DNA of 64,000 nt from Pseudomaricurvus alkylphenolicus (GTDB lineage Bacteria > Pseudomonadota > Gammaproteobacteria > Pseudomonadales > Cellvibrionaceae). The translations under genes and the position numbers were made by a program. The stretch spans positions 310,001-374,000 of the forward strand of contig NZ_JAAQPI010000006.1 in the NCBI RefSeq assembly GCF_011683955.1, in the 5' to 3' direction. A model generated the notes under the pieces. It ran no database searches. It was given only the letters and a program-made list of their open reading frames with translations, and was not told the origin of the DNA. Below, in pieces: positions 13,343 through 64,000 of the stretch. How positions within the stretch are numbered: the stretch's first letter is position 1; each line of letters starts with the position of its first letter.

Positions 13343-13456
13343 GGCTTAATGGTCAATCGGGACTGGAAACCCTTCAAACCTATATTACACTTTTATGACA
13401 AACCATCGATGAGATAACCACCCCGGAAGGAAGCCACACTGACAGAGGGAACTGAC

Positions 13457-34196: not shown

Positions 34197-34281
34197 GGCT
34201 GTTCCCTCGCCAGGCCCCTGTCACAAAAATGACATCATTCGGTAGCAAAATGGCAAATATCGACCTTTGTAACTACCGACT

Positions 34282-35733: not shown

Positions 35734-35758
35734 ATGCCGTCCCATTTAAAAAGCTACC

Positions 35759-36973: not shown

Positions 36974-37064
36974 GGCATCGACGGCACCACGATCATAAAA
37001 GCTTCACAAAACTGTAGTATTAATGCGTGCTCATGATCAAAAGTGAATATCACGCAGGACTACA

Positions 37065-38386: not shown

Positions 38387-38392
38387 TTAGCG

Positions 38393-40227: not shown

Positions 40228-41351
40228 CAGATACCGCTCATCTCAACCAACTGACCAGCGGGGTCAAGGGAAACGCCTTCAATGCGTCTCCTATTGCCCT
40301 TTGGGTTCCATCGGCAGAGATTCTCTGTTTTACCCTGCCGCCGCTCACCGCGCCCAAAAAGAAATGGGATCAGTTAATTCCCTGGCAGCTGGAGGACGAG
40401 CTGCTTCAGACACCGGACCAATACCATTTTGTCTGGAATCAGCCTACAGCGGAGGAGGACATTCAAATCCTGGCGGTGCCCAAGTCCGTCATCCAGAATT
40501 GGCGGTTGCTGGCAGAATCCAGTGAGCAGACACCCATTCAGATGGCTCCGGACTTTCTGGCCCTGCCGGAGCAAGAAGATGACTGGACCGCTTACATCGA
40601 CGGCAACGATGTTACCATACGCACCGGCGCAGCATCGGGCTTTGCCTGTGACCTGCCCTTCTTTTGGCAATTGCTGTCCCGTGAGTTGGCACAGAAACCG
40701 GAGTTTCGTGCCTGGCTGTGGAGCAATGAGTCACTCGACCTGCCCGAAGCCCTGGCTGAATCTGACAGGGTTGAGGTACAAGTCCGCGAATTGAAGTGGG
40801 ATTACCTGGAGTTACCCCACGACTGGAACCTGTTGTCCGCTGAACACGCCCGCACCAAATCCACTCCCCGGCTGCCGGTTACCGCGTTGACACTGGCGCT
40901 GAGTGCTGCGGTAGGGGTGCTGTTTTTTGGCTACCTGTGGTTGGCAGCAAACGTTTACAAAAGCAATGCCGACAAACTCGAACAAGCCATCGTGGCTGAA
41001 TTTGCGGCGCGTTTTGAAGTGCAGGTGACGGATGCTGTCATCGCCCGCTCCCAGGCACAACAGATACTGGAATCCAGAAAGACGACCGATCGATTGATCG
41101 CCCATTCCCAGCTGGCCACCTTACTGGATGCGGACTCCGCACTGAGCGCATGCTCAAGCTGTGAGCTGCAATCCGCCATTCTTGAAGATGATGCGCTGAT
41201 ACTGACACTTGCCGACAAGGCCGGCCTGGAATCTGAGCTCGCGGTGCTCAACAAAGACTTTCAGATGCAGTGGGGAGTCAGTAACAGCAAGGGCGAAAAC
41301 CCCGTTCGCATTTTGAGTCTCTTCGCAAGAGCAGAAGGTAATCATCAATGA
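40224..41351 (+). CDS. gspL: Type II secretion inner-membrane protein GspL
   Basis: 375 residues. N-terminal cytoplasmic actin-like domain (~220 residues; KKKWDQLIPWQLEDELL is the GspE-contact type region), one transmembrane helix near residues 212-234 (ALTLALSAAVGVLFFGYLWL), and a periplasmic ferredoxin-like C-terminal domain. Couples GspE to GspM. ATGA overlap with gspK and with gspM. Confidence 0.9.
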   Translation: MTDTAHLNQLTSGVKGNAFNASPIALWVPSAEILCFTLPPLTAPKKKWDQLIPWQLEDELLQTPDQYHFVWNQPTAEEDIQILAVPKSVIQNWRLLAESSEQTPIQMAPDFLALPEQEDDWTAYIDGNDVTIRTGAASGFACDLPFFWQLLSRELAQKPEFRAWLWSNESLDLPEALAESDRVEVQVRELKWDYLELPHDWNLLSAEHARTKSTPRLPVTALTLALSAAVGVLFFGYLWLAANVYKSNADKLEQAIVAEFAARFEVQVTDAVIARSQAQQILESRKTTDRLIAHSQLATLLDADSALSACSSCELQSAILEDDALILTLADKAGLESELAVLNKDFQMQWGVSNSKGENPVRILSLFARAEGNHQ

Positions 41352-41821
41352 GCCCGATATTGACCTGGTGGCAGCAGCGCACTGACAGCGAACAAAGAAC
41401 CCTGAAAATCGCCTCACCGATCATCCTGTCGGCGGTATTCTATTTGCTGGTGTTTGCCCCCTTGTACGGAAGCTACGCGTCCGAAAAGAAACGCCTTGAG
41501 CAACTCAAATCAACCTACCTGTGGTTGGCCGAGAACAGCGGAGATTTGGCAGCCCCCTATATTTGTCAGTCCGTTGACACCACCTCTGCCCCCAAAGAAG
41601 CACTGGAGCGCCTGTCACGTGCAGAGGGCATTGCACAATCGAGCTGGACCCAAACGCACGAAGGCTGGAGTGTGGCCATCAAGTCGGCCCAGGGGCGATC
41701 CGTTTTGCGTTGGCTGGAAGCCTCTGCCTGCGTCGGCGCCTCGATAACCCATGTCGACATTCAGCGGGTAAACAACCATTCACCGCTGGTAAACGCCAAT
41801 GTGGGGATGTTGCTGCTGTGA
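41348..41821 (+). CDS. gspM: Type II secretion inner-membrane protein GspM
   Basis: 157 residues. Short cytoplasmic N-terminus with SPILTWWQQRTDSEQR, a single transmembrane helix around residues 23-42 (ASPIILSAVFYLLVFAPLY), a coiled coil and a periplasmic ferredoxin-like domain. Partner of GspL in the inner-membrane platform. Overlaps gspL by 4 bp and gspN by 4 bp. Confidence 0.87.
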   Translation: MSPILTWWQQRTDSEQRTLKIASPIILSAVFYLLVFAPLYGSYASEKKRLEQLKSTYLWLAENSGDLAAPYICQSVDTTSAPKEALERLSRAEGIAQSSWTQTHEGWSVAIKSAQGRSVLRWLEASACVGASITHVDIQRVNNHSPLVNANVGMLLL

Positions 41822-42486
41822 AACCGTTACACTGGACACTTTACAGTGCTGCCGCATTGACGGCGATTCTGGTTGCCCTGCTTAATCTCCCGTTAAACCG
41901 GATCTTGGCATCCTCGCAAGCACCGGTAACGATCGTGGATACCGTTACACTTGCGTCGGGAACGGTTTATGTAAAACCGAGCCAGGCGCCGGTATGGCGC
42001 ATCCGTTACCGCTGGTGCCCCGGCCAGGGCCTGACAAGCTGGTGCATTGATGGCCGCAGTGGTGAGTCTTTTTTGCAAGGCATTGCCCACTGGCAAGGCG
42101 GAACCGCGCTGGCCCTGGCGAACATCGAGGTGTCAGCACACAGTGACCAGCTACCCGGCATTGCTGCGCCGGCCAGCTTTACGTTAACTGCCAGAGCCTC
42201 GCATGTGGCCGTAGCGTCACTGGCCTGCGGGCAACAGCAAATTGCCGTCGGCGACGCTCTGGTTACCTTGTCGAATCTGAAGGTGCTCGGCAACAGCCTG
42301 ATGGATTCTCAGGTAAGCCTGCACGGCAGCCAGCCGGTGCGCCTCTCCCTGACGGGTTCATTCTCCGGCTCGGGACAAATCGCAAATGGCAAACTGTCAC
42401 TGCAGGCGCAGCCTTCGGCGAACCTCGATACCCCACACACTCACTCCGGCTGGTCATTCAGGGCCAAGCTGCCTTGTTTAGCTTGA
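41818..42486 (+). CDS. gspN: Type II secretion protein GspN
   Basis: 222 residues from GTG 41818 (GTGA overlap with the gspM stop). One N-terminal membrane anchor (LYSAAALTAILVALLNL) precedes a periplasmic domain rich in Val/Ala/Ser. GspN is an accessory, non-universal component. Four Cys residues are in the periplasmic part (two in YRWCPGQGLTSWCIDG). The longer in-frame reading from 41710 lies inside gspM and is not used. Confidence 0.8.
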   Translation: MKPLHWTLYSAAALTAILVALLNLPLNRILASSQAPVTIVDTVTLASGTVYVKPSQAPVWRIRYRWCPGQGLTSWCIDGRSGESFLQGIAHWQGGTALALANIEVSAHSDQLPGIAAPASFTLTARASHVAVASLACGQQQIAVGDALVTLSNLKVLGNSLMDSQVSLHGSQPVRLSLTGSFSGSGQIANGKLSLQAQPSANLDTPHTHSGWSFRAKLPCLA

Positions 42487-42493
42487 GGCGGAA

Positions 42494-43273
42494 ATGAAAA
42501 ATTTACCGAGCATACACCCCGTCCACATAATCAATGCGCTTCTGCTGGTGGCGCTGGCCGCACTGGCTTGGAATGTCATCTCTTTGTCACAAAGCACGGT
42601 TAACGTCACAGCGGCGGCTGATTCATCGTCCTCAAACTACAAAGCCGGGGGTTCCTGGCAATGGTTTGACAAAGACGAAAACCGACGCGCCGATAACATT
42701 GTCCGCAAGTCGCTGGGGCGAACGTCGATCACGGCCACATTAAACGGGGTCATCAACAGCGGCGGCGTTTCGGTGGCCTCCATCCGCGTTCGCGGCCGCG
42801 AAAGCGCGGTATACGCCCCTGGAGAAGAGATCTCGCGTGGTGTCACTGTTCACCGCATAGAAAACACACGCGTGATTCTGAGGGAACACGGCGCGTTGAG
42901 GGAACTTCCCCTGGCCAGCCTGGATGACAACCTTGCCGGTGGCGATACAAGCGGCAGAAGCCAGCCGCTGCTGGACCTGAATGAGTCGCACCACGCCGAA
43001 GGCCTGGAAATAACGGCGGTAAACGGAACCACGGGCGTTACCCTCAAGGGCTTGTCCAGTCGCGCTGCCAGCGTGACCGGCTTGCGTTCTGACGACACAG
43101 TGATCTCCATCGATGGGCGCCCTATCGTGGACTATATGCAGTCGGGGGAACTACAGACCCTGGCAAGCCTTGAACAGGCCAATGTCATCGTGGTCAGGGA
43201 TGGTAATGAACTGCCACTGACCATAGACACCAAAGATTTTGCACAGGATCTGATTAGGCAGATACATAAGTGA
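42494..43273 (+). CDS. gspC: Type II secretion inner-membrane protein GspC
   Basis: 259 residues. An N-terminal transmembrane helix (IINALLLVALAALAWNVISL) is followed by the homology region that binds the GspD N0 domain (VASIRVRGRESAVYAPGEEI... HRIENTRVILREHGALRELPL) and a C-terminal PDZ-like domain (LSSRAASVTGLRSDDTVISIDG). It links inner platform to secretin. Here gspC and gspD follow gspN rather than heading the operon. Confidence 0.9.
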   Translation: MKNLPSIHPVHIINALLLVALAALAWNVISLSQSTVNVTAAADSSSSNYKAGGSWQWFDKDENRRADNIVRKSLGRTSITATLNGVINSGGVSVASIRVRGRESAVYAPGEEISRGVTVHRIENTRVILREHGALRELPLASLDDNLAGGDTSGRSQPLLDLNESHHAEGLEITAVNGTTGVTLKGLSSRAASVTGLRSDDTVISIDGRPIVDYMQSGELQTLASLEQANVIVVRDGNELPLTIDTKDFAQDLIRQIHK

Positions 43274-48262: not shown

Positions 48263-50941
48263 TTAGAAAGACCACTTATAATCAATCGAGAAAGAACTGC
48301 CAGGCGCATAACTAAACGTGGTTACACCATCCTGTTCAATCTCAACATCCTCATCCAGAATGTTCTTAATCCGCAGTCTCAGAGTTGACTCCTCGGTAGG
48401 ATACCAGAAATAAGTCAGATCCAGAGAGTGGAAAGGCTGCTCATAGGCATCTGGCGTACCCAGACGACCAGCCAGAAACAGGCGTTCATCGAACACATTG
48501 TAAACCAACATCGCAGAATGCTGGCCATCGGTAGAATCGAAACCGAACTGAATGTTCGCCGTCAGATCAGAAGCACCGGTCAATGGACGAGTAGGATTGG
48601 TTGGGGAGTCAGCACGATCACCGGCAACAATCTCGGTATCCAGCGCTGTCAAGTTACCGGAAACAAAGAATGGGGAGAATGCCTCACCCAGGAAACCCAG
48701 CCCCTTCAACCACTCAAACTCCACACCATAGAGCTCAGCACTCTCCGCATTGATAATCTGCGCAGCAAGAGCATCCTCAAAGGCAGCCCGCTCAAACGAT
48801 TCAATCGGATCGGTAATATCCTTATAGAACAAAGACGCCGTGAAATTATCACCGGTAGAGAAGAACCACTCACCACGAATATCGTAGTTCTTAACCGTCG
48901 CCGGAATCACATCCGTACCGCCTTTGACAATGGCGTCAGTCAGAGGGTCAATATAACTGGAAGGTGTGATTTCCCGCAGGTCAGGCCTGACGATCGTCTC
49001 AGAGTAGTTCACTCGGAACTGGAACGTCTCCGCACCAAAGTCAGAAGTACTGTAAGTGAAGGCTACAGATGGATAGTAATCATCCTCCGAGAATACAGAC
49101 TCCGCGATGTCATCCCCGTCACAGCTGACCTGACAACCATCGTAATCCAGAGGATCCCATGGCAAACCCACCTGCTTGTAGTCTTCCCAGCGAAGACCGG
49201 CAGTAATTCTCCAGGCATCACCGATCCGTAAATCCACCTCACCGAATACCGCCTGATTGGTCACAGCGGCCAGATAACTCTCACCGTTGTTACCCACAAC
49301 ATCAATTTCGAAACCGTTGCCCGCGTCAAGGATATTGTCATCGCTGAAAATATCAGAAGGCAGACCGTCCGCGTTACCCGAGAACGCGAGATCACTGGTG
49401 CCCAAGGCAAACTCAGTCTGGCGATAGGTACGGGCCTTCTTGGCGTAATTATAACCACCGGACAGCGTCAGCTCGTAATTGTCGAAATAGAGAGGCAGAG
49501 AGATCTTGGAGCCGTAATTTTCAACTTCGTCCTGCAGATTGGTGAAACGGAAGTCACCAGCAGACGTTGAAGGCTGAAGATTCTGGGATACGAAATTTCC
49601 ATCCCCATCCACATTCAGCTGATAAGTCACAGACACTTCGTTGGGGATATCAGTGGTGACTTCAGAGTCAGAGTAGAACCACTCAACTCGCAGGTCGTTC
49701 AGCCAGTCGAAACGGGTGGCCTCCATACCCAGAGTCTCGCGCACGACACCACCGAAACGATGATCACCATTGAACTGCAGAACCTGCAGCTCGCGTTCTT
49801 CGTAACGAACTTCGTAGTCACGGTTACCACGGCCTTCACTGAACGGAGTGGAAGACCCGAAGTAATCACGAACCGTGGTTTTATCGTCCGTATTGCGCAG
49901 CAACAGAGCGGTCATCTGTACAGAGTGATCATCATCCCAACGCCAGCCGACAGTGGCATTGGCGTTAGCACTCACGTTGTATGTGGAAACATCACGCTCG
50001 GAAAATGCATCATCCGGCAGACCAAATTCCGCATCGCGAATTTCGCGGTTGGTCCAGGAACTCTCGTAGGAACCACCCACCAGAAAACCCAGCTCCATGC
50101 CGTGATCCAAGTGGAAGTTGTTACCGACATTGAGTTCAAAAGCGCGATTTAGGTCAGGGCTTTCTTCTCGTACATTGATGTTTCGGTTCAGCGCCAGAGC
50201 CAGGTTTCTGTTGATGGCTTCCGCCTCTGCAACATCGGCGTTACCATTACCGGATAGATTCAGGTCATTCAGAATATCACCAACAGCCAGAGAACCCTGG
50301 TAAGTACTCAGCGCAGAACGTAATTCGCCTGGCATAGAACGCGTGCCGTCATCGCGGCCAAAGGCGTCATCACCGCCGCCGCTGTAGCTCAGCACATCGC
50401 CATCGGTTTCGGAATTTAAACTGGTACCGACTTCAACCGAGAAAGTGAAGTCATCCGGAATACCCTTGGTGCGAATATCAATCAGACCACCACTGAAAGC
50501 GGCCGGTATGTCAGAGGAATAACCCTTTTGTACAGATACCGACTTCAGAATAGAAGTTGGAAAAATATCCAGAGGAATAACATTTCTGGTCAGATCCGGA
50601 GAAGGAATCTGGGCGCCATTCAGTAGCGATGAGGAATATCGCTCACCAAGACCGCGAATAAACACGAAGCGATCATCGATTAGTGTCACCCCCGGAACAC
50701 GTCGCAGCGCTGCAGCAAGGTTGGAATCACCGATTTTACCAATGATCTCGGCATCGATGATGTCGGATACGACGTCGCTTTCAAGACGCTCGACCACAAC
50801 ATCATCGGCTGCGGATCTGAGGTTACCGACAACGACGACTTCCTCTACCGCCTTGTCGTTTTGAGCAATGGCTGTCCCTGCTACTGCACTCATGGTAAGT
50901 GCTGCAATATGAGCACTCAATAACTTTTTTTTGGTTTGCAT
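48263..50941 (-). CDS. TonB-dependent receptor linked to an outer lipoprotein
   Basis: 892 residues. Signal peptide ends near TAIAQN, then a VEEVVVVGNLRSAADD TonB-box region, a plug domain (AALRRVPGVTLIDDRFVFIRGLGERYSSSLLNGAQIPSPD; SAFSGGLIDIRTKG-type end) and a barrel ending in FSIDYKWSF. This plug subtype is often encoded next to a beta-helix lipoprotein. The lipoprotein gene lies 104 bp upstream on the same strand with a hairpin in between. ATG 50941 is favoured over 50965 because it starts the signal peptide. Confidence 0.92.
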   Translation of the reverse strand: MQTKKKLLSAHIAALTMSAVAGTAIAQNDKAVEEVVVVGNLRSAADDVVVERLESDVVSDIIDAEIIGKIGDSNLAAALRRVPGVTLIDDRFVFIRGLGERYSSSLLNGAQIPSPDLTRNVIPLDIFPTSILKSVSVQKGYSSDIPAAFSGGLIDIRTKGIPDDFTFSVEVGTSLNSETDGDVLSYSGGGDDAFGRDDGTRSMPGELRSALSTYQGSLAVGDILNDLNLSGNGNADVAEAEAINRNLALALNRNINVREESPDLNRAFELNVGNNFHLDHGMELGFLVGGSYESSWTNREIRDAEFGLPDDAFSERDVSTYNVSANANATVGWRWDDDHSVQMTALLLRNTDDKTTVRDYFGSSTPFSEGRGNRDYEVRYEERELQVLQFNGDHRFGGVVRETLGMEATRFDWLNDLRVEWFYSDSEVTTDIPNEVSVTYQLNVDGDGNFVSQNLQPSTSAGDFRFTNLQDEVENYGSKISLPLYFDNYELTLSGGYNYAKKARTYRQTEFALGTSDLAFSGNADGLPSDIFSDDNILDAGNGFEIDVVGNNGESYLAAVTNQAVFGEVDLRIGDAWRITAGLRWEDYKQVGLPWDPLDYDGCQVSCDGDDIAESVFSEDDYYPSVAFTYSTSDFGAETFQFRVNYSETIVRPDLREITPSSYIDPLTDAIVKGGTDVIPATVKNYDIRGEWFFSTGDNFTASLFYKDITDPIESFERAAFEDALAAQIINAESAELYGVEFEWLKGLGFLGEAFSPFFVSGNLTALDTEIVAGDRADSPTNPTRPLTGASDLTANIQFGFDSTDGQHSAMLVYNVFDERLFLAGRLGTPDAYEQPFHSLDLTYFWYPTEESTLRLRIKNILDEDVEIEQDGVTTFSYAPGSSFSIDYKWSF

Positions 50942-50980
50942 AATACGAACCCTACGCTCATCCACTAATTTTGGAATAGA

Positions 50981-51003
50981 AAGGGCGCCGCTCGGGCGCC
51001 CTT
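50981..51003 (-). terminator. Hairpin between lipoprotein and receptor genes
   Basis: AAGGGCGCC and GGCGCCCTT arms, 9 bp perfect, 5-nt loop. On the minus strand it follows the lipoprotein stop by about 40 bp and precedes TTTCTATT, and lies 40 bp before the receptor ATG. A weak terminator or attenuator that would make the lipoprotein more abundant than the receptor is plausible. Confidence 0.55.
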
Positions 51004-51045
51004 CCAGTCACACTATCGGCCATTCAACCGTGGTGGTTTTCGAGA

Positions 51046-52686
51046 TTACTCGAACCACAGAGCCTGTGAGCGGTTACCTTCGCGCAGACCGAATGCCCAA
51101 GGAGCAGTCCAGTCGTTGTCAGCGGATACTGCGCCGATAATACTGGAGTCAACTGGAGTAGGAATGGTTGCGCCGGTAGCTACCATGCTGGCTACAGGTA
51201 CAGAGTAGAAACCATCCAGAATCACCAGGTCGCCGTTAGAAGCAGAAGTTGGATCTTCACCGGCTTCCGCGGACTGATAAACAGCGTTGCCATTGTCGGT
51301 CAGCCACTGGGCGGTAGATTGACCTTCGAGGCTGCTGTCAACCAGGTCCTGACAAGCAACGATGGAAGAAGAGATAGTCAGGTTACCGTCCAGAGCCGCC
51401 TGCTGACCTTCGTTGTCGATGCGAACACAGTAGCTGAAGTCGTCATCGCCCAGAACATCGTCACCAGAGTAAGCAGTCGTCACAATAGCGTTGCTGATGG
51501 TTGGGAAGTGAGCTTCACGAATACGCATGCCCTGGCCTGGGTCATGAGTACCGGTTTCGTTGGCGGAAACGATACAGGTCAGGTTCTTCAGGGTCGCCGC
51601 AGAGTTCAGACCACGGGCGATAAAGTCATCGATGGTCGCCTGATCGCGAGAAGAGTAGCTGCCGATACCATCGGACTCTACGCAGCGGTTACCATCCAGA
51701 CGAGACTGGATAACCAGAGCGTTTTCAATGGTGCCGATGTAACCTTCGTCGATATCGATGGAGTCGTCACGTACGTACAGGGCAACGTAGTTGGTCACAT
51801 CTACGGCGCCACCAAAAAACTCAATACCATCATCAAAGGTGCTGTAAGCCTGCAGGTTTTCTACAACAGTGCCGGAACCAACAGCGTTGAATGCAATACC
51901 GTTCAGTTCGTTGCCAGGAGCAACTTCTGCACCGGTGTGCTTGACAACAACATAGCGCAGTACGCCGGAGTTATCGCCATCGTTGTCACCACCGTAGTGA
52001 GTTTCACCGTCACCTGCACGGCCTTCAGAAACAACATTACACTCACCGGTAAGAGCCAGGTCAACGCCACGGGTACCAGAGTAGGAACACTTGTTGGTCA
52101 CACCAAAGCCGTTGATGATCATGCCGCCCCACTCGGATACGTCTTCAGCACCAACAGTGCCGCTGACTGCATCGTTTACGGAAGTGAAAGTAATTGGGGC
52201 AGCAGCAGTACCGTTGGCACGGATCTGAGAACCACGGTTAACAACGGCGTAGTCCAGAGTGGTATTGAAAGCCATGGTAACACCGGCTTCGATAGTAACG
52301 ATCGCGCCGTCACCACCTTCTGAAATACCTGCCGCATCCAAGCCGGCCTGAGAAGCGTGGTTTTCGCCAATGGCCAGAGAACCGTCAAAGATGTGAACGC
52401 CTTCACCGATATTCGGGAAAGTCATGGATACAGTGATGGGGTTGTCTACATCAACGAAGCCAGTGGTGTAGGTGCAGTTGGTGCCATCGAAAGAACCTTC
52501 GTTAACAACACCGTCTTTGGTGTAAGTTGCACAGCTGAATTCTTCAACTGGGGTAGTTGGTACTTCAGTCACTGAATTGTCAACACTGTTGTCAACGTTG
52601 GAAGGAGAGATGCTCACATCTCCACCATCACAGGCGGCAAGCAATGCAGCTAAGATGCTTACGCCCAGAACTTTCTTTTGACCCAT
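51046..52686 (-). CDS. Beta-helix-like outer lipoprotein, candidate type II secretion substrate
   Basis: 546 residues. Lipoprotein signal peptide MGQKKVLGVSILAALLAAC with the lipobox LLAAC; residues +2/+3 are Asp and Gly. The mature part is acidic, Gly/Asn/Asp-rich with repeated turns (GAGVTMAFNTTLDYA, WGGMIINGFGVTN, FDDGIEFFGGAVDVTNYVALYVRDDSIDIDEGYIG), consistent with a parallel beta-helix. It ends WAFGLREGNRSQALWFE. It resembles the Caulobacter ElpS lipoprotein, which from memory is secreted through a type II system and encoded beside gsp genes and a TonB receptor. ATG 52686 follows a GAGGAG ribosome site. Confidence 0.85.
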   Translation of the reverse strand: MGQKKVLGVSILAALLAACDGGDVSISPSNVDNSVDNSVTEVPTTPVEEFSCATYTKDGVVNEGSFDGTNCTYTTGFVDVDNPITVSMTFPNIGEGVHIFDGSLAIGENHASQAGLDAAGISEGGDGAIVTIEAGVTMAFNTTLDYAVVNRGSQIRANGTAAAPITFTSVNDAVSGTVGAEDVSEWGGMIINGFGVTNKCSYSGTRGVDLALTGECNVVSEGRAGDGETHYGGDNDGDNSGVLRYVVVKHTGAEVAPGNELNGIAFNAVGSGTVVENLQAYSTFDDGIEFFGGAVDVTNYVALYVRDDSIDIDEGYIGTIENALVIQSRLDGNRCVESDGIGSYSSRDQATIDDFIARGLNSAATLKNLTCIVSANETGTHDPGQGMRIREAHFPTISNAIVTTAYSGDDVLGDDDFSYCVRIDNEGQQAALDGNLTISSSIVACQDLVDSSLEGQSTAQWLTDNGNAVYQSAEAGEDPTSASNGDLVILDGFYSVPVASMVATGATIPTPVDSSIIGAVSADNDWTAPWAFGLREGNRSQALWFE

Positions 52687-52851
52687 TTCGGTAGCTCCTC
52701 GATTGGTATGTAGGGGTTGTCTTAAATCAGATCGCTGCAAGCTACCAATTAATTCTTACAGATATATGAACGTCGATTTTCGAAACGAATTTAAATCAAT
52801 TTAAGTTTATTTGTTGACCTTTTGGAGATCGAAAAAGCGCCAGTCGAATTT

Positions 52852-52935
52852 TTGCTACAGTTTTACTTCAAATTTACTGCATTTTTTATTCATATTTACT
52901 GCGATAATGTTTCGGGTTTACTTCACTTTTACTTC
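52852..52935. promoter_or_regulatory. Array of eight 7-mers at exact 11-bp spacing
   Basis: On the plus strand 7-mers begin at 52852, 52863, 52874, 52885, 52896, 52907, 52918 and 52929: TTGCTAC, TTACTTC, TTACTGC, TTTATTC, TTACTGC, ATGTTTC, TTACTTC, TTACTTC. Six fit TTRCTNC; the fourth and sixth are degenerate but in register. Spacers are 4 bp and A/T-rich. On the minus strand they read GNARNAA, facing the lipoprotein gene whose ATG is 166 bp away. One 7-mer per helical turn is the geometry of tandem sites for PhoB/OmpR-type winged-helix regulators. Confidence 0.75.
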
Positions 52936-52989
52936 GGAAATGCGACAGCTCGCATAAGCTTTTCAAGACTTGTTTGAATTAAATACTGA

Positions 52990-53017
52990 GAAGAAAAAAA
53001 TGGGGCCAAAGGCCCCC
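52990..53017 (-). terminator. Orphan leftward rho-independent terminator
   Basis: GGGGCC-AAA-GGCCCC stem (53002-53016) with an A-rich tract on its left, i.e. on the minus strand a G/C stem followed by ATTTTTTTTC. No annotated minus-strand gene lies upstream (53018-53309), so it must serve an unannotated transcript or shield the lipoprotein promoter. Confidence 0.75.
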
Positions 53018-53170
53018 AATGATACTGTGTTCTTTTTATTCGTCGAATCTGTGGCTCACAGACAATCAATGTGTTTCCCACCCGTATTGGAAAACTCGGC
53101 ATTCCGCTGAATCGATCTGCAAAAATCAGCTCCTCCAGGTGAACTCATTAGAGAGGAGATTTACTGCGGA
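52990..53170 (-). ncRNA. Candidate small RNA upstream of the lipoprotein promoter
   Basis: The orphan terminator defines a 3' end. Upstream on the minus strand lie a perfect TCTGTG-GCT-CACAGA hairpin (53048-53062), a CTCCTC pyrimidine stretch that could pair with ribosome sites, and a TATATT that may be a -10 box near 53172. A 30-codon reading frame from an ATG near 53148 lacks a ribosome site, so a non-coding RNA is more likely than a peptide. The 5' end is a guess. Confidence 0.3.
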
Positions 53171-53252
53171 AATATAACGGTTCGATAACAAGTTGATTAC
53201 GAATTGGTGACGACTGTATATTTTTTGCACAAACCCCATTATTGCACCTTTT

Positions 53253-53271
53253 AATGTTATGTTATAACATT
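53253..53271. promoter_or_regulatory. Zur box upstream of the zinc-starvation operon
   Basis: AATGTTATGTTATAACATT, a 19-bp near-perfect dyad that matches the enterobacterial Zur operator core (AATGTTATANTATAACATT). It ends 38 bp before the DUF1826 start codon, where it would block a promoter when zinc is plentiful. Confidence 0.8.
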
Positions 53272-53309
53272 TGCCGAAAAAACACCCAGCCGGTTATTGA
53301 GGAAAACTG

Positions 53310-53984
53310 ATGAGCACACTTGCCAGGAGTGATGATGTATTTGAGCTTAGTGATAGAACACGCTTCTCAGCGGAAGGGGCCGACCCCGGCGTTTTAGCGG
53401 ACATCTACCAGGAAGACTGCAACATTGCTGTGTGGCAAAGAGAGCTGGCACCTGGATTAAAGCCACAGCTGGACCCCTTCCTGGCCTCCCATCGCCGTTT
53501 GCAAGCCTCTATGATCGTCTCGCCAGACAGCGTCTTTTCCAGCATCAGCCAGACCCTGGGAGACTGCGAAGCAGCTCATTCACTGAGCAAAGACATCGCA
53601 GAGCTGGTGGACATGTTCTGCTACCTGTTCGAACTCAAACAGACCGGCCTAAGGCTGACCACCCTGGATCGCGCCATGTGCCCCAAGTTCCATGTGGACC
53701 GAGTCCCCTGCCGCTTGGTCACCACCTATCAGGGCACGGCCACCGAGTGGCTGCCCCACGACGCCGTTGACCGCACCAAACTCGGCAGAGGCAGCGAGGG
53801 CAAAGCGGATGAAGAGTCCGGTCTCTTCCAGGACTCTGGCCAGATCCGACAGCTCAGCCAGGGCGACGTGGCATTGCTGAAAGGCGAGCTGTGGGAAGGC
53901 AACGAAGGCGCCGGCCTGGTGCACCGGTCACCCCAGGTGCCAACAGATGTACGGCGCTTGTTGTTAACACTCGACTTTGCCTAA
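53310..53984 (+). CDS. DUF1826 protein, zinc-limitation associated
   Basis: 224 residues, cytoplasmic, no signal peptide. It begins [38 protein letters not shown], and includes [26 protein letters not shown], whose His and Cys could bind metal or iron in a 2-oxoglutarate-oxygenase-like fold. DUF1826 genes are known neighbours of COG0523 GTPases in Zur regulons; biochemical function is not established. First gene downstream of the Zur box, with a GAGGAAAA ribosome site; 35 bp before the GTPase gene. Confidence 0.82.
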
Positions 53985-54019
53985 ATTCCATATTCTGTGA
54001 TTCAAGAACCATTAGATTT

Positions 54020-55234
54020 ATGAAAGCCAATACCAATAGCAAACTCCCCGTCACTGTACTTTCCGGTTTTCTCGGCGCCGGTAAAACCACGGTACTCAGC
54101 CATATTCTGAACAACCGACAGGGCAAGAAAGTCGCGGTTATTGTCAACGACATGAGCGAAATCAATATCGATTCGGCCATCATCCAGAACGACGTATCGC
54201 TGAACCGGAGCGAAGAGAAGCTGGTGGAGATGAGTAATGGCTGCATCTGCTGCACCTTGCGAGAGGATTTGCTGGAGGAAGTCACCAAGCTTGCCCGGGA
54301 AGGACGTTTTGACTACCTCGTGATTGAATCCACCGGTATATCCGAGCCTTTGCCAGTGGCTGAGACGTTCACCTTTGCGGATGAAGATGGGGTTTCTCTG
54401 TCGGATGTGGCCGACCTGGATACCATGGTGACCGTGGTTGATGCCATCAACTTCCTCAAGAACTACGAAGAGGCAAAGTACCTGACGGAAGTGGGTGAAT
54501 CCCTGGGCGAAGATGACGAACGCAGTGTGGCGGATTTACTGGTGGACCAGGTGGAATTCGCCGATGTGATTCTTATCAGCAAGACCGATCTGGCTGCACC
54601 TGAGGATGTCGAACGCCTGACCGCCATTTTAAGAACACTGAATACGGATGCCCGAATCATTCCCATCACCCAGGGAAAAGTGGATATTGATGCCGTACTG
54701 AACACCGGGCTTTTCGATTTCGAACGCGCTCAGCAAGCGCCGGGCTGGCTGAAGGAAATGCGGGGTGAGCACGTTCCCGAAACGGAGGAATACAATATTG
54801 GCAGCTTCAGTTACATCGCCCGACGCCCATTCCATCCGGAAAAATTCTACCAGTTCCTGCACGGCACCGAAAAATACGGAAAATTAATTCGTTCAAAAGG
54901 TTATTTTTGGTTGGCAACCCGCCCGGAATTTGCCGGCCAGTGGAGCCAGGCCGGTGGTATTGCACACTATGGTTTTGGGGGCATGTTCTGGAAGGCCGTA
55001 CCGAAACAACAATGGCCCACCGACGAAGAGTATCTCGCGTCGATTGAGAAACAATGGGTCGAACCCTTTGGGGATATGCGCCAGGAACTGGTGTTTATTG
55101 GTCAGGGGCTGGATCAAACCAAAGTCACGCAGGCACTTGATGATTGCTTGCTGAGCGAAGATGAAGTACTTCGTGGCAAGGAATACTGGGCCACATTGAG
55201 CGACCCGTTTCCCGAATGGCAACAGGGCGCATAA
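54020..55234 (+). CDS. COG0523/CobW-family GTPase, ZigA/ZNG1-like zinc metallochaperone
   Basis: 404 residues. G-domain with Walker [11 protein letters not shown], the metal-binding CxCC in [11 protein letters not shown] just after switch I, ESTGISEP Walker B-like region and SKTD (NKxD variant) base-recognition loop; a C-terminal CobW_C domain with [11 protein letters not shown]. These proteins deliver zinc to essential enzymes when it is scarce. The start at 54020 gives the family N-terminus; the longer reading overlaps the DUF1826 gene. It is inside a Zur-box operon. Confidence 0.92.
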
Positions 55235-55288
55235 CCTTCAGATATCCAGGGATTCACGCGCCACCAATGGAATGAACAAACGAGCGAA

Positions 55289-55738
55289 ATGACAAACGTT
55301 AACGAAACAGTCGACTATGCTGAAAAACAGTGTAAGAACCGTGGATCTCGACTAACTGACAAAAGAAAACTGGTGCTCTCCGGTTTACTTAGGTCCGAAA
55401 AGCCTTTGTCTGCCTATGAACTCATCGAATTCTGCAAGGTCGAGCTGGGAGAAACCCTGCCCGCCATGACCATATACCGAGTACTGGACTTTCTTGAACG
55501 CGAGCAATTGGTACACAAGTTAAATCTACACAATAAGTATGTCGCCTGCGAACATATTACCTGCGATCACAGCCACTCTGTCTCTCAGTTTTTGATTTGT
55601 TGCCGATGTCAGAAAGTTGAAGAAGTTATTATCAGCAAATCAATGGTCAAAGAGCTTCAGGAAAATGTAGAAAGCGCTGGTTTTTTTCTCGAAAACCCGC
55701 AAATCGAAATAAACTGTATTTGCGAAGATTGCAGATAA
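55289..55738 (+). CDS. zur: Fur-family zinc uptake regulator (Zur-like), copy 1
   Basis: 149 residues. Winged-helix part with LTDKRKLVLSGLLRSEKPLSAYELIEFCK and PAMTIYRVLDFLEREQLVHKLN. Metal sites: His/Cys in CEHITCDHSHS and structural zinc Cys in LICCRCQK and CICEDC. The NKYVACEH region is typical of Zur rather than Fur. Located between the GTPase and DksA2-like genes, downstream of the Zur box, so it is likely autoregulated. It is ~50% like copy 2 at 56939 by eye. Confidence 0.85.
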   Translation: MTNVNETVDYAEKQCKNRGSRLTDKRKLVLSGLLRSEKPLSAYELIEFCKVELGETLPAMTIYRVLDFLEREQLVHKLNLHNKYVACEHITCDHSHSVSQFLICCRCQKVEEVIISKSMVKELQENVESAGFFLENPQIEINCICEDCR

Positions 55739-55809
55739 GTCAGAAAAAATCAAGAAATGTTGCGGGAAAAACATGTAAACCCACAATTTTTAACCGAAGT
55801 TTGAAGATT

Positions 55810-56247
55810 ATGAATGTGCAGACATCCGGCCAGGAGCCAGCACCACTCACCAGGGAGCTGATTCTCACAGCACCGGAACAAGACTATATGAACGAAGCGC
55901 AGCTGGCGTTTTTTAGAAATCTGCTGCTGGAGCTACATGAATCCACACTGGTTCGCATCCGCGAAGCCAAACAGCAAATGATGCGGTCGTTCGATGCCAG
56001 TGATGACGGTGATCGCGCCGCCTGGGAAGAACAGTCCAGCCTCGCCCTTAGAATTGCTGATCGCGAACAAAAGCTATTACCGAAAATCAAGCAGGCGCTG
56101 GAACGTATCCACGATGAGGAGTTTGGGTATTGCTTGGAATCCGGTGTTCCCATCGGCATTCCGAGATTGCTGGCCAGGCCGACAGCGGAATACTGTGCAG
56201 AAGTGAAAGCCATTAAGGAAATGAAAGAGCATCACTATAAAGGCTAG
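55810..56247 (+). CDS. dksA2: DksA2-like transcription factor lacking two zinc cysteines
   Basis: 145 residues. The coiled-coil tip carries the DksA-type Asp-Ala (FDASDDGD) that reaches into the RNA polymerase secondary channel. The zinc-finger region reads FGYCLESGVPIGIPRLLARP then AEYCAEVKAIKE. Only the first and third of the four usual cysteines remain, so zinc binding is not expected. From Pseudomonas, the cysteine-poor DksA2 replaces zinc-dependent DksA under zinc starvation and is Zur-repressed, matching this context. The start at 55810 is chosen over 55720 (no ribosome site; atypical leader). Confidence 0.88.
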   Translation: MNVQTSGQEPAPLTRELILTAPEQDYMNEAQLAFFRNLLLELHESTLVRIREAKQQMMRSFDASDDGDRAAWEEQSSLALRIADREQKLLPKIKQALERIHDEEFGYCLESGVPIGIPRLLARPTAEYCAEVKAIKEMKEHHYKG

Positions 56248-56260
56248 AGAGCTTCTTCGC

Positions 56261-56289
56261 TTGACATGCTCCTGAAGCATTAGCATGAT
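56261..56289 (+). promoter_or_regulatory. Sigma-70-type promoter of the DUF2796 gene
   Basis: TTGACA at 56261 and CATGAT at 56284 with 17-bp spacing, about 38 bp before the DUF2796 start codon. A CATGCT/AGCATG inverted repeat (56265-56287) overlaps it and could be an operator. Confidence 0.45.
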
Positions 56290-56327
56290 AAACTTTGTAG
56301 CCGTCACGCCGAGTTTTCACCCCAGTT

Positions 56328-56933
56328 ATGAAACTCTTCTTCCGATATCCGAACATCCTGCTTTTGTCCATTGCAAGTCTCGCGCTTCAGGCCAAGGCCG
56401 CTTCCGATCATGGTCACAAACAGCATGAGGCTCATCTGCATGGATCCGCAGAATTGACGCTTGCGATCGAAGCTGATTCACTCGAGATCAGCCTGGAGTC
56501 ACCGGCCGCCAATATTGTCGGCTTTGAGCACCGGGCTACCTCCCCAGAACAGGTTAACGCTGCCACGAAAGCCCAAGCCGCGCTGAATTCGGCGGAGAGA
56601 TTGTTCTCCTTCACAGGCAGTTCATGCTACCTGCAGAAGGCCAGCATTGATATGTCGGCGATCATCGAGCCGGATCAGGCACACGATACACATGAAAAGC
56701 ACCACGCCGGCGATGGCGACCATGAACATCACGATGACGAGGAAGATTCGCACAGCGAGTTATCAGCCGTTTACCACTATCAGTGCAAGAGCGGCGCAGA
56801 CATAAGCGGCATCACAGTCAATCTGCATGATTACTTCCCTGCCATTGAAAACCTGAAGATCATGTGGCTCACAGATAGTGGTCAGGGAGCCGTTGAGCTG
56901 ACCGGAGAAGCCAAATTTGTTCGACTAAGGTAA
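56328..56933 (+). CDS. His-rich periplasmic DUF2796 protein (ZrgA-like zinc binder)
   Basis: 201 residues. Signal peptide cleaved near LQAKAAS. The mature start AASDHGHKQHEAHLHGSAELTLAIE is typical of DUF2796. A central acidic/histidine-rich stretch runs about residues 118-148 (HDTHEKHHAGDGDHEHHDD) and would bind zinc loosely. DUF2796 corresponds to ZrgA of the Vibrio Zrg zinc-uptake system (from memory), which works with an ABC transporter; LolD/FtsX-type ABC genes follow at 58087. Its gene is followed 5 bp later by the second Zur-like gene. Confidence 0.86.
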   Translation: MKLFFRYPNILLLSIASLALQAKAASDHGHKQHEAHLHGSAELTLAIEADSLEISLESPAANIVGFEHRATSPEQVNAATKAQAALNSAERLFSFTGSSCYLQKASIDMSAIIEPDQAHDTHEKHHAGDGDHEHHDDEEDSHSELSAVYHYQCKSGADISGITVNLHDYFPAIENLKIMWLTDSGQGAVELTGEAKFVRLR

Positions 56934-56938
56934 CCCCT

Positions 56939-57400
56939 ATGGCAAGCATACAAGCCATCATCAACCATGCAGAGAACAATTGCAGAGCACATGGAGCTCG
57001 CCTGACGCAGAAGCGCAAACGCGTATTAACAGGGTTACTGCAATCGGGTAAAGCCATGTCTGCTTACGAGCTGGCAGATTACTGCAAAGATGAATTTGGT
57101 GAAGCGCTCCCGCCCATGTCCGTGTATCGTATCCTCAGCTTCCTGGAAGAAGAGCATCTCATCCACAAGCTAAAGCTGATCAATAAATTCATCGCCTGCT
57201 CACACATCACTTGTACTCACAAGCATGAGGTACCCCAGTTTCTGATCTGTGGAAACTGTCAACGGGTCAAAGAAATTGCAGTGGACAAAGCTGTCATCGA
57301 CACCCTTGATCGACACATCAAAGATGCCGACTTTCACCTGATGAGCCCCCAATTGGAACTCAGCTGTTTATGCCAACAATGCATGGACAAAGCCAGTTGA
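56939..57400 (+). CDS. zur: Fur-family zinc uptake regulator (Zur-like), copy 2
   Basis: 153 residues. Same domain plan as the copy at 55289: LTQKRKRVLTGLLQSGKAMSAYELADYC, PPMSVYRILSFLEEEHLIHKL, CSHITCTHKHEV, ICGNCQRVKE and a final CLCQQC. It shares an operon with the DUF2796 gene. Having two Zur paralogs in the same zinc island is unusual; one may be the global repressor and the other may act on the local Zrg-like genes. It converges with the DUF3299 gene. Confidence 0.85.
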   Translation: MASIQAIINHAENNCRAHGARLTQKRKRVLTGLLQSGKAMSAYELADYCKDEFGEALPPMSVYRILSFLEEEHLIHKLKLINKFIACSHITCTHKHEVPQFLICGNCQRVKEIAVDKAVIDTLDRHIKDADFHLMSPQLELSCLCQQCMDKAS

Positions 57401-57404
57401 AGCA

Positions 57405-57995
57405 CTACTCAGCATAGACTTCGTAACTTTGCATCTCTATAGCGTAGGCCGCCGTCGCCATATCGTTTTCGATAAGTGACGTTTTTAGAATCCCCGAAAT
57501 CCAAAAGGGATCAAACAGCGCATCAAGCTTTAACCCTTTCGGGTAATTCACGTAGATAACCTGATTTGGCGGTGGTGGCGGAACGTGAATACAGGCCCCG
57601 AAGAACGGCACCAGAAAGAAATCGGTGATCACCTGATCATCATTGAATTCCAGAGGGACAATATAGCCGGGAATCCGAACTGGCTGCCCATCCAATTCTG
57701 GCTTGATCCTGGTGGAAACCAGAGCCTGCTGGTAGCGATCATTGGTTGCAGCCGAAATTGTGTTTTTAATTTGGCTGCTGATTTGATCCTCTGCGGAACC
57801 ATCCTGAACCTCAGTGATATATTCAGGAGGGTTAAGCAGCGCGTCCAGATCTTCTTGTGGAATGAGGTCCGGCCATTCAATCGTTTTAAATTGAGCTGAA
57901 GCCTGGGCCACAACGCTCCCAGTGAAGCATAAGCCGATAAGGAACGGTAATAAAACGAAAAACTGTAACAGGGGCTTCGGACGCAAGTTTGTCAC
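57405..57995 (-). CDS. DUF3299 periplasmic protein, zinc-uptake associated
   Basis: 196 residues with an N-terminal signal peptide or anchor (LLQFFVLLPFLIGLCFTGSVVAQA). The family core FFLVPFFGACIHVPPPPPNQVIYV is intact, with Cys and His that could coordinate metal. DUF3299 proteins co-occur with DUF2796 and LolD/FtsX-like ABC genes in the Zrg-type zinc loci (from memory). It is divergent from the ABC genes, and the palindrome at 58021-58041 lies 26 bp from its start codon. Confidence 0.82.
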   Translation of the reverse strand: MTNLRPKPLLQFFVLLPFLIGLCFTGSVVAQASAQFKTIEWPDLIPQEDLDALLNPPEYITEVQDGSAEDQISSQIKNTISAATNDRYQQALVSTRIKPELDGQPVRIPGYIVPLEFNDDQVITDFFLVPFFGACIHVPPPPPNQVIYVNYPKGLKLDALFDPFWISGILKTSLIENDMATAAYAIEMQSYEVYAE

Positions 57996-58020
57996 CGATG
58001 GGGCTGGACCTAAGGACTCA

Positions 58021-58041
58021 AAATGATACTATATATCATTT
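58021..58041. promoter_or_regulatory. Zur-like operator between DUF3299 and ABC transporter genes
   Basis: AAATGATA and TATCATTT arms around a 5-bp centre (21 bp in all), sharing spacing and A/T-rich outer ends with the Zur box at 53253 but with GAT instead of GTT in the arms. It lies 26 bp from one start codon and 46 bp from the other, so one protein could control both. Confidence 0.55.
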
Positions 58042-58086
58042 TTCGATGGCAAATCATTTTTCAGGGGCTTTTACGCAGAAATCTCA

Positions 58087-58770
58087 ATGGCAATTCAACT
58101 CAAAGACGTCCACTTCTGTTATCCCGAGGCCCCGAACAAAACTGTGCTCTGCATCAAAAACTGGTCTGTACCCGAACAGGAACATGTGTTTATACACGGC
58201 CCCTCCGGTAGCGGGAAGTCGACCCTGCTCAATCTTCTCAGCGGTATGTTAAGAGCAACACAGGGAGAAGTATCCGTACTGGGCCAGCGCCTGGACCAGT
58301 TGAGCAACCGCCAGCGGGATAAGTTCAGGGCAAATCACATTGGCTATATTTTCCAACAGTTTAACCTTATCCCTTATCTTAACCCTATCGACAATATTCG
58401 TCTCGCGAACCGGTTTTCGGGGGGTAAGACCATAGCCTCTGACGTCGACAACCGGATTGAGACCTTGCTGGCGACATTCAATATTCCGCCCTCCGAATGG
58501 CAAAAGCCGGTAGCCCGGCTGAGTATTGGACAACAACAACGCATCGCCATTACGCGTGCCATGATCAACAAGCCGGAACTTCTGATCGCTGACGAGCCAA
58601 CCTCCTCACTGGATCCGGATAACCGCGATAATTTTATGACGAAGCTTATGTCCCTCGCCAAGGAACACCGGATTACCCTGCTTTTTGTCAGCCACGATAT
58701 GTCTTTGTCGCATTATTTTGATCGCATTGCGCCATTATCTGAAATTAACTCAGCGGGAGCTTCCCGCTAA
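58087..58770 (+). CDS. LolD/MacB-type ABC transporter ATPase (Zrg-like)
   Basis: 227 residues. Walker A HGPSGSGKSTL near residues 38-47, Q-loop IFQQFNLIPYLNP, signature LSIGQQQRIA, Walker B LLIADEPTSSLD and switch His in LFVSHD. It belongs to the LolD/MacB/FtsE group that works with MacB-type permeases at the inner membrane. Together with the permease gene it forms a unit divergent from DUF3299 and close to DUF2796, the composition of the Vibrio Zrg zinc system. Its stop overlaps the permease ATG by one base. Confidence 0.9.
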   Translation: MAIQLKDVHFCYPEAPNKTVLCIKNWSVPEQEHVFIHGPSGSGKSTLLNLLSGMLRATQGEVSVLGQRLDQLSNRQRDKFRANHIGYIFQQFNLIPYLNPIDNIRLANRFSGGKTIASDVDNRIETLLATFNIPPSEWQKPVARLSIGQQQRIAITRAMINKPELLIADEPTSSLDPDNRDNFMTKLMSLAKEHRITLLFVSHDMSLSHYFDRIAPLSEINSAGASR

Positions 58771-60011
58771 TGTTTATCCGACTCGCCTCAAAAAGCCTGC
58801 TGAACCGCAAGGGCTCTGTACTGCTGACCCTGATGGCCATGAGTGTCAGCATTTTTGTTTTGTTGGGGGTCGAGCACATCAGGCACCAAACCAAGGACAG
58901 TTTTAACAGCACCGTTTCCGGTGTTGATCTTATCGTCGGCGCCAGAACCGGAAGCCTTAACCTCCTTCTCTATTCCGTTTTCCGCATTGGCTCTCCCACC
59001 AACAATATTGGCTGGGAGACCTACCAAGCGGTGGCTTCGAACTCAAAGGTGGCATGGTCCGTGCCAATTGCCCTGGGTGACTCGCATAAGGGTTACCGGG
59101 TTATGGGCACCACCAGCGACTACTTCAAGCACTTTCGCTACGGCCAAAAACGCCAGCTCGAATTCTCTGCCGGCCAGCAGTTCAGTGGTATTTTCGATGT
59201 CGTGCTCGGCTCGGAGGTCGCCAGAAAACTGGGCTATACCCTGGGAGATCCTCTGGTGTTGGCCCACGGTATCGCCAAAACCAGCTTTAGCCTCCATGAC
59301 GATATGCCATTCAAGGTTGTGGGAATATTGGAAACCACAGGTACGCCCGTGGATCAAACCCTGCATGTCAGCCTGCAGGGCATTGAAGCCATACACCTCA
59401 ACTGGCAACAAGGGGTTAAATTGCCCGGGCGCAGGGTTGACCGCGAACAGCTGAATCCGCAGGCACTGGAGCCCGAGAGTATCACCGCGTTTATGCTGGG
59501 CTTAAGCTCCAGAATGGCAACTTTTCGAGTGCAACGCGACATTAACAACTACGCCAGAGAGCCGCTTTCGGCTATCTTGCCGGGTGTCGCCCTGTCGGAG
59601 CTTTGGCAGATGATGGGGTTGCTGGAAAACACGCTGCGCCTTATCGCCGGCCTGATCCTGATCGCTGCCCTGCTGGGTTTGAGCGCGATGATGCTGGCCT
59701 CCATTCGAGAACGCGAGCATGAAATCCATCTGCTCCGGGTAATTGGCGCACCGCCCTTGTACCTGTTTTTGCTTATTGAACTGGAAGCCATCCTGATTGC
59801 GCTTACCAGCATTATTTTAGGCTTGTCAGGTTTGTACATCTGTTTGCTCACCGCAGGTGATTTCCTGGCCTCCAGCTTTGGTTTGCATATAGGCACCAAT
59901 ATTTTCTCTGGCGACAACACCGTGTTTTTGCTGTTGATCATTGGCGCAACCATTATCGCGGCGATGATCCCTTCGTTCAGCGCTTACCGCAATGCCAAGG
60001 CCAGCCTGTGA
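58770..60011 (+). CDS. FtsX/MacB-type ABC permease (Zrg-like)
   Basis: 413 residues. One transmembrane helix at the N-terminus (LLTLMAMSVSIFVLLGV), a ~230-residue periplasmic MacB-like domain (DLIVGARTGSLNLLLYSVFRIGSPTNNIGWE...), then three C-terminal helices with the FtsX motif (AALLGLSAMMLASIREREHEIHLLRVIGAPPLY). Such transporters drive periplasmic work rather than simple import. It pairs with the preceding ATPase and is expected to act with the DUF2796 and DUF3299 proteins. Confidence 0.88.
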   Translation: MFIRLASKSLLNRKGSVLLTLMAMSVSIFVLLGVEHIRHQTKDSFNSTVSGVDLIVGARTGSLNLLLYSVFRIGSPTNNIGWETYQAVASNSKVAWSVPIALGDSHKGYRVMGTTSDYFKHFRYGQKRQLEFSAGQQFSGIFDVVLGSEVARKLGYTLGDPLVLAHGIAKTSFSLHDDMPFKVVGILETTGTPVDQTLHVSLQGIEAIHLNWQQGVKLPGRRVDREQLNPQALEPESITAFMLGLSSRMATFRVQRDINNYAREPLSAILPGVALSELWQMMGLLENTLRLIAGLILIAALLGLSAMMLASIREREHEIHLLRVIGAPPLYLFLLIELEAILIALTSIILGLSGLYICLLTAGDFLASSFGLHIGTNIFSGDNTVFLLLIIGATIIAAMIPSFSAYRNAKASL

Positions 60012-63652: not shown

Positions 63653-64000
63653 TAGATTGGAACCTTAATCAAGAGCATCAATCCTTACTATATTAGTACC
63701 TTCTGCCTTAGTAATGCGACCTTTCCAATGAGACGACCTAGAACCCAGAATTCGGCGAGATAGTGCCGGCAAGACTTGCCTCATCGCCACCACTGAATGG
63801 TTATCCTTGGCTATGATGCGCTGTCGAGAGAGTGAGTCCGTCAATTATCGACCAGAGCTTTGTTCATTAATTGGACAAGCATAAGATCTTCGATGTTATA
63901 ACGTAACACTCACGGAGAAATCGATCAATCATCCGCTTTGCAGCGACAACCAAAAGTTACAGCCAAATAGAGAGCTCGAAGAGATACTCCCTATTAATGG
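63653..64000. other. Gene-free right end of the window
   Basis: 348 bp with no convincing coding frame. It holds the upstream region of the HD-GYP gene and, near 63892, a Zur-like palindrome that probably belongs to a gene starting beyond the window. Confidence 0.6.
63892..63910. promoter_or_regulatory. Zur-like palindrome at the right edge
   Basis: GATGTTATAACGTAACACT: TGTTA and TAACA half-sites match the Zur box at 53253, with a mismatch in the inner bases. The adjacent minus gene starts 240 bp away, so a rightward gene outside the window is the likelier target. Confidence 0.45.

Follow-up and report, generated by a model that had tools for sequence, protein, structure and literature searches.

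The stretch of DNA analysed here, 64 kb in full and called the window below, contains a real long tandem operator of the OmpR/PhoB type. This operator, array 1, lies on the minus strand (52849..52947) before a gene for a lipoprotein and consists of nine 11-bp units. On balance, and at somewhat better than even confidence, we favour the view that array 1 is a lengthened and drifted OmpR/PhoB-type operator of the promoter of this lipoprotein and a TonB-dependent receptor (TBDR), most likely used by PhoB.

Results

A self-similarity scan and a phased matrix match both picked out array 1. Each unit is a 7-mer followed by a 4-bp spacer, and the 7-mers read, in order, TGTCGCA, CGAAGTA, TGAAGTA, CGAAACA, CGCAGTA, TGAATAA, TGCAGTA, TGAAGTA and TGTAGCA. 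An earlier note on this DNA had described eight 7-mers of the type GNARNAA at an exact step of 11 bp, and we recovered all of them, with minus-strand starts at 52935, 52924, 52913, 52902, 52891, 52880, 52869 and 52858. Six of the eight match GNARNAA exactly, while GAAACAT and GAATAAA carry one mismatch each, both in register. The eight units therefore stand, but eight is not the full length: a ninth unit, CTGTCGCATTT (52948-52938 on the minus strand, annotated as 52937..52948; TGTCGCA in the 7-mer register), abuts them in exact register and is PhoB-like.

In a scan of tandem self-similarity at periods 7–23 (8 units for periods up to 12, 6 units for longer ones), array 1 was the top block of the window, with period 11, 8 units and a z of 10.7; the next-best period-11 block, at 4.67, is array 2 of the same intergenic region, described below. 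Array 1 also withstood the shuffling test that the earlier note had proposed: its z was not reached in 3000 dinucleotide shuffles of the intergenic region or in 5000 of the block alone. Phased GNARNAA matches numbering at least four of eight were found on the minus strand at array 1 only; the other strand reached at most 2/8, as did 200 mononucleotide shuffles of the window scanned on one strand. The shuffle statistics and these counts together rule out chance periodicity.

The conserved core of the units spans 8 bp, approximately G-(A/C)-A-G-T-A-A-A preceded by T or C. Columns 2, 4 and 7 are invariant and columns 8 and 9 nearly so, whereas columns 3, 6 and 10 vary and column 11 is almost free, near random. 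Such a pattern is what a binding site would show, and a recent tandem duplication is not favoured. With direct repeats at a single step of about 11 bp, in which the core is conserved and the spacer free, array 1 has the features of the tandem-operator class. The sites do not, as had been claimed, all face one side of the helix; on 10.5-bp DNA, 11-bp steps precess by about 17 degrees per unit, so that the sites wind slowly round it. The distance to the lipoprotein start also needs correction, from 166 bp to the 162 bases that separate 52852 from the ATG at 52689. Neither inspection by eye nor a promoter scan found a convincing −10 element after array 1.

The gene downstream of array 1 (51046..52689, minus strand), identified by its open frame and the lipobox LLAAC, encodes a lipoprotein of 547 aa that neither Pfam nor NCBIfam matched at E 0.001. 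Its relatives come from Microbulbifer, Alteromonadales, Bacteroidetes and an alphaproteobacterial MAG. The TBDR gene follows (48263..50965, minus strand; PF00593/PF07715), and from their position the two genes are probably cotranscribed; a TBDR match was present in 74 of the 76 related loci that hold the lipoprotein. Past this pair and convergent with it lies a T2SS operon, in which GspE, GspG, GspJ and GspC were assigned by Pfam within 34282-43273 (GspE by PF00437). The T2SS genes of the window were absent from the flanks, up to 5 kb, of all related loci (0/76).

Two sites upstream of T2SS genes resemble Pho boxes. One, TGTCACA-TGACATC-GGTAGCA (34219..34251, plus strand, in a region noted as 34208-34251), stands 30 bp before gspE; on the experimental PhoB matrix it falls within the second-best 4-unit phased match of the window (18.6). 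The other, GATCATA-CTTCACA-TGTAGTA (36991..37023, plus strand), stands 41 bp before gspG and is weaker, with a two-unit score of 13.1 on the same matrix, seventh among the matches listed. These sequences suggest that the T2SS operon may be part of the phosphate response. Strong two-unit Pho-box-like pairs were also seen at 13400 (minus strand; TGTCATA-TGTAATA), upstream of a 305-aa frame without a Pfam match, and at 42574 (plus strand; TGTCATC-TGTCACA), within gspC. The periodicity scan further marked a period-21 block (39106-39231) where the 39109 open frame begins.

Orthologues of the lipoprotein were present at E<=1e-100 in 58 of the 144 family genomes, and five other genomes of the same genus gave no lipoprotein match even at E<=0.001. 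Upstream sequences were usable for 91 of 106 loci, our own included; 15 were unusable, either for want of a lipobox start or because the upstream was too short, and locus L083, which had no start under the start rule used, was left out. A phased E. coli-type Pho array was found at <=2/200 shuffles in 45/91 upstreams and at <=10/200 shuffles in 57/91, both counts with our own, which itself stood at 3/200. Many of the 46/91 upstreams without a clear canonical array at the 1% level are Microbulbifer-like or Bacteroidetes records. When the strongest of periods 7–18 was sought in 43 upstreams, it was period 11 in 21 and period 8 in 11, and period 11 went beyond shuffles in 20 of them at the 5% level and in 15 at 1%. 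Two upstreams of genus g4 (L146, L151) equal those of Microbulbifer variabilis (L001, L002) in score and sequence, and g4 was therefore taken as Microbulbifer.

Variant half-sites occur in register with canonical ones in the relatives. The pattern YG(A/C)A(A/G)YA was counted against canonical pairs in 111 upstreams, 55 of which have such a pair, with L072, L077, L146 and L151 left out. It was in phase in 15/629 cells, from seven distinct upstreams, and out of phase in 3/5552, counts in which overlapping seeds repeat cells that are thus not independent. The g4 upstream L138, for its part, has the in-phase units CTGAAACCTTA TTGCAATAAAA ATGTCATTTGT. Position 5 is A in all 15 in-phase half-sites. 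The form with G there, NGNAGYA, occupied 1/629 cells in phase and 3/5552 out of phase in the relatives. Of five other sites in the window, three (gspE, gspG and array 2) combine NGNAGYA with canonical units in phase, against 0.08 expected for the five, which were chosen after seeing them. No such in-phase unit was present at the window sites 42574 and 13400, nor at phoB and pstS.

We then asked how array 1 reads on matrices of PhoB operators. A matrix learned from 45 upstreams of the nearer orthologues, our own left out, gave array 1 the top rank of the window whether 4, 6 or 8 units were scored; column permutations did as well for array 1 with this matrix in 50/3000 cases (8 units) and 15/3000 (9 units). 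With 43 upstreams, after the near duplicates L146 and L151 had been dropped, array 1 scored 36.6 in the PhoB register, and matrices from 60 shuffled sets gave it at most 20.1 in its best register. The PhoB register was the best of 22 for array 1 under all real matrices used, and in the shuffled-set controls it was the best of 22 in 9/60, which is itself above 1 in 22. The most PhoB-like units on the relatives' matrix were TGTCGCA, the ninth unit (8.1), TGTAGCA (6.9) and CGAAACA (6.6). In register and composition, array 1 thus fits the orthologous operators.

The experimental E. coli PhoB matrix, built from 50 of the 59 sites that PMC10294691 names, gave the inner units scores of −5.3 to 2.0. 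Column permutations did as well for array 1 in 987/2000 cases (8 units) and 498/2000 (9 units) on this matrix, and 1535/2000 and 732/2000 on an E. coli promoter matrix. Among the single units TGTCGCA passes the experimental matrix (5.4), while CGAAACA and TGTAGCA are weak (2.0 each). Position 5 is A in 97% of the experimental half-sites and G in six of eight array 1 units. The earlier remark that the inner half-site is not CTGTCAT is therefore borne out, since the experimental matrix fails to recognise the inner TGMAGTAAA units. Because these units lack a TGTCA-type core by that matrix, we did not class array 1 as a Pho box; it is predicted to work like one.

The genome encodes 12 near-full-length matches to the PhoB model, of which one, PhoB, is above the cut-off and 11 are below. 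The recognition helix of this PhoB, RTVDVHIRRLRK, is identical to that of E. coli, so that the genome has a PhoB with the canonical DNA-binding helix. Pho boxes in 11-bp steps precede phoB and a pstS-like gene, whose product falls below the family cut-off (154.4 vs 206.6). From the helix and these boxes, PhoB is expected to prefer TGTCAT here, and the inner units of array 1 would accordingly be weak PhoB units kept occupied with the help of their neighbours, or else the trace of a different regulator. Six of the 12 regulators were run on NCBIfam, with BaeR, MtrA, MtrA, PhoP, CpxR and RstA as best families, all below cut-off.

Array 2 (53158..53212, minus strand) consists of near-canonical Pho boxes, with the units CGTCACC, CGTAATC, TGTTATC, CGTTATA and CGCAGTA in 11-bp steps; the final unit, CGCAGTA, is of the array 1 type. 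On both strands of the window, no 4-unit phased match outscores it with the experimental E. coli PhoB matrix (22.6; column permutations 25/2000), nor does any with the E. coli promoter matrix (19.74). By eye, TCTAAT (53147..53152, minus strand), 5 bp past the last unit, is a possible −10 element, its spacing to array 2 having been compared by eye with E. coli phoA; the promoter scan did not report it. An intrinsic terminator, GGGGCCTTTGGCCCC-ATTTTTTT (53002..53016, minus strand), lies between the two arrays. From there to 53649 no open frame of at least 80 aa is listed on the minus strand, and the next two minus-strand frames, starting at 53649 and 53854, both overlap plus-strand genes. Array 2, the possible −10 element and the orphan terminator (53002-53212) may frame a candidate phosphate-controlled RNA of about 120–140 nt, which could be a short RNA or a leader. 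A search of 52000-54000 gave no Rfam match at E 1. The fold of the leader between the arrays was barely better than shuffles (z −1.22; 24/200 equal or better), and none of the 57 other genomes searched matched the leader at the DNA level.

A zinc-related cluster (53310-60011) diverges from the lipoprotein gene and holds genes for a DUF1826 protein, a ZigA GTPase, two Zur-like regulators (below cut-off), a DksA-like protein and ZrgA, together with DUF3299 and ABC transporter genes. The palindrome AATGTTATGTTATAACATT (53253..53271, plus strand) stands before it, a perfect match to AATGTTATRTTATAACATT at 53253, where 0.01 chance matches would be expected over the whole search; by the Zur consensus it is Zur-box-like. 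Zinc control of array 1, which this neighbouring cluster had suggested, appears unlikely, as the palindrome precedes the divergent genes and is unlike array 1 in sequence. A weaker Zur-box-like palindrome with three mismatches lies at 63892-63910 (minus strand), and the periodicity scan marked a period-9 block (56673-56744) inside the His-rich ZrgA-like gene.

Discussion

The reading that we prefer places array 1 within the phosphate response. The array would have descended from the PhoB operator carried by many orthologous promoters and been extended to nine units in this genome, its inner units mostly drifting from TGTCAT, TGCAAT or TGAAAC to TGMAGTAAA. At low phosphate, PhoR would phosphorylate PhoB, which may first load the better units, namely the distal TGTCGCA, CGAAACA and the promoter-proximal TGTAGCA; the weak inner units would then be filled through neighbour contacts between PhoB molecules. 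Acting presumably as an activator and not as a repressor, PhoB would recruit RNA polymerase, and the surface lipoprotein and the receptor would be transcribed. The neighbouring T2SS operon, whose promoters bear Pho-box-like sites, would be transcribed together with the pair. Given its weak inner units, the promoter may fire only in strong or prolonged starvation.

The earlier note had proposed an undescribed OmpR-family regulator that polymerises on DNA. The class, with head-to-tail sites in 11-bp steps, agrees with our analyses. An undescribed regulator is not needed, because many orthologues have Pho-box arrays before the same gene, because the ends of array 1 and array 2 are PhoB-like, and because variant half-sites stand in phase in seven relatives. 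One feature speaks against drift, however: drift alone would not bring separate units to one new core. Also counting against the preferred reading are the scores of the inner units on the E. coli matrices, the array 1 motif pair seen nowhere else among the genomic candidates scored, the lack of a convincing −10 element, the 46/91 upstreams without a clear canonical array, the 9/60 shuffled-set controls with the PhoB register and the 0/76 related loci with T2SS genes in the flanks covered.

Another OmpR-family regulator, specific for TGMAGTAAA, might instead have taken over the ancestral Pho operator and polymerise on array 1, leaving PhoB only the end units or array 2. We hold this to be unlikely. 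The conserved 8-bp core with its almost free spacer end would suit such a regulator, as would the failure of the inner units on the experimental PhoB matrix, and candidates are at hand in the 11 sub-cut-off proteins among the 12 matches to the PhoB model. A second genomic target was not found, however, the array 1 motif pair being absent elsewhere in this genome among the 150 of 1225 candidates scored with model R1, and none of the ten proteins from 48263-58770 run on Pfam is a response regulator. The register and the orthologue matrix agree with PhoB, and three Pho-box-like sites of the window likewise have an NGNAGYA unit at their end. It is likewise doubtful, to the same degree, that the takeover went unit by unit with the half-site TGMAGTAAA and gave a filament of up to nine protomers.

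A CpxR operator, which would put the outer-membrane pair under envelope-stress control, appears still less probable. Array 1 resembles the CpxR box GTAAA-N4-8-GTAAA in that it has two exact pairs at 11 bp (GTAAA-N6-GTAAA), the only two such sites of the window, where 0.15 would be expected. The same N6 spacing is seen in the CpxR site GTAAACCTAATGTAAA of P. aeruginosa mexA, as given in the part of PMC5063474 covered, and the genome has a CpxR-like regulator (L118; 239 bits vs a cut-off of 341). Against CpxR, the pair GTAAA-N5-6-GTAAA occurs in 0/43 orthologue upstreams. In addition, no 11-bp GTAAA pair, within the range of 7–25 bp, was found in 30 family cpxR upstreams, our own included, where the distances were 20 bp (four upstreams), 10 bp (one) and 13 bp (one); and the units TGTCGCA and CGAAACA contain nothing near GTAAA. 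Among the cpxR upstreams (L118, L158-L186), at least some of the four with 20-bp GTAAA pairs have GTTAA half-way, which by sequence suggests a CpxR site phased at 10 bp.

Two-unit matches resembling array 1 occurred at E<=1 in 7/144 family genomes, this one included, with model R1 and 57 candidates per genome among those listed. Their surroundings favour CpxR to some extent, in that one of the six outside pairs stands before skp (neighbour names by eye) and three, in one genus, lie between a gene for an OmpA-like lipoprotein and the gene preceding a tolC-like gene; the remaining two (L155, L157) stand beside no informative gene. The skp pair and the three tolC-side pairs are L152, L153, L154 and L156, and the tolC-side ones overlap GTAAA-N5-GTAAA.

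That array 1 has no dedicated reader and that its phased A-tracts simply curve the DNA, as the earlier note had allowed, is very improbable, for although AA/TT phasing at 11.0 bp ranks array 1 fourth of 63913, with a maximum (52842) that overlaps it, the signal is weak at the 10.5-bp helical repeat (rank 622 of 63913), and the invariant G and the common G within each unit are unneeded for bending.

A PhoB operator that was lengthened and drifted thus remains our preferred account of array 1. In the literature covered, an operator usually has two to a few units, whereas array 1 has nine and a second, inner consensus, and dozens of relatives have ordinary Pho boxes at this promoter. No title or abstract opening on Pho boxes, their arrays or such loci concerned this promoter in that literature, which comprises few subscription papers. 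Array 1 offers a test case for the reading of graded half-sites and the lengthening of operators by response regulators, and for the passing of an operator between OmpR-family regulators with the 11-bp register kept. If a takeover did occur, array 1 would document, in nature, the capture of one response regulator's operator by another in the same register. The lipoprotein–TBDR pair has been little studied; here both it and a T2SS are linked to what is probably a phosphate-starvation response outside Caulobacter.

Among known systems, the nearest in plan is the Pho box of E. coli, which consists of head-to-tail direct repeats of 11 nt with seven well conserved and four less conserved bases, according to the part of PMC4415409 covered. 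Array 1 shares this plan with the boxes of pstS, phoB and phoA and reads best in the PhoB register, but its inner units are TGMAGTAAA and not TGTCAT, and its nine units are contiguous. The PhoP operators of Streptomyces, with core and ancillary units, likewise consist of several 11-nt units of unequal quality; that of pitH2 comprises four core units and two weaker ones, which fill as PhoP rises (PMC7866108). They belong to another phylum and another regulator, run to up to six units in the sections of that paper covered, and differ from array 1, in which the weak units have a second consensus in common. The KdpE half-sites, TTTATA-N5-TTTACA in the part of PMC3264566 covered, recall array 1 in their 11-bp spacing and in the TTTAC-like core on its other strand, but they are only two, and KdpE was the best family for 0/6 of the regulators scanned (of 12).

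At the level of the locus, the closest counterpart is in Caulobacter, where the phosphate-starvation lipoprotein ElpS (cc0170) and the TBDR cc0171 are encoded immediately upstream of T2SS genes (PMC2996285, in the part covered). PhoB regulon categories, as far as covered in PMC11208175, include T2SS and several TBDRs. The window has the same arrangement, a lipoprotein gene next to a TBDR gene and a T2SS operon beside them, which speaks for the PhoB reading, and we infer that the lipoprotein is ElpS-like, a candidate homologue of ElpS. The two loci may differ in the control of the receptor: cc0171 is reported as constitutive, whereas the TBDR described here would be under phosphate control.
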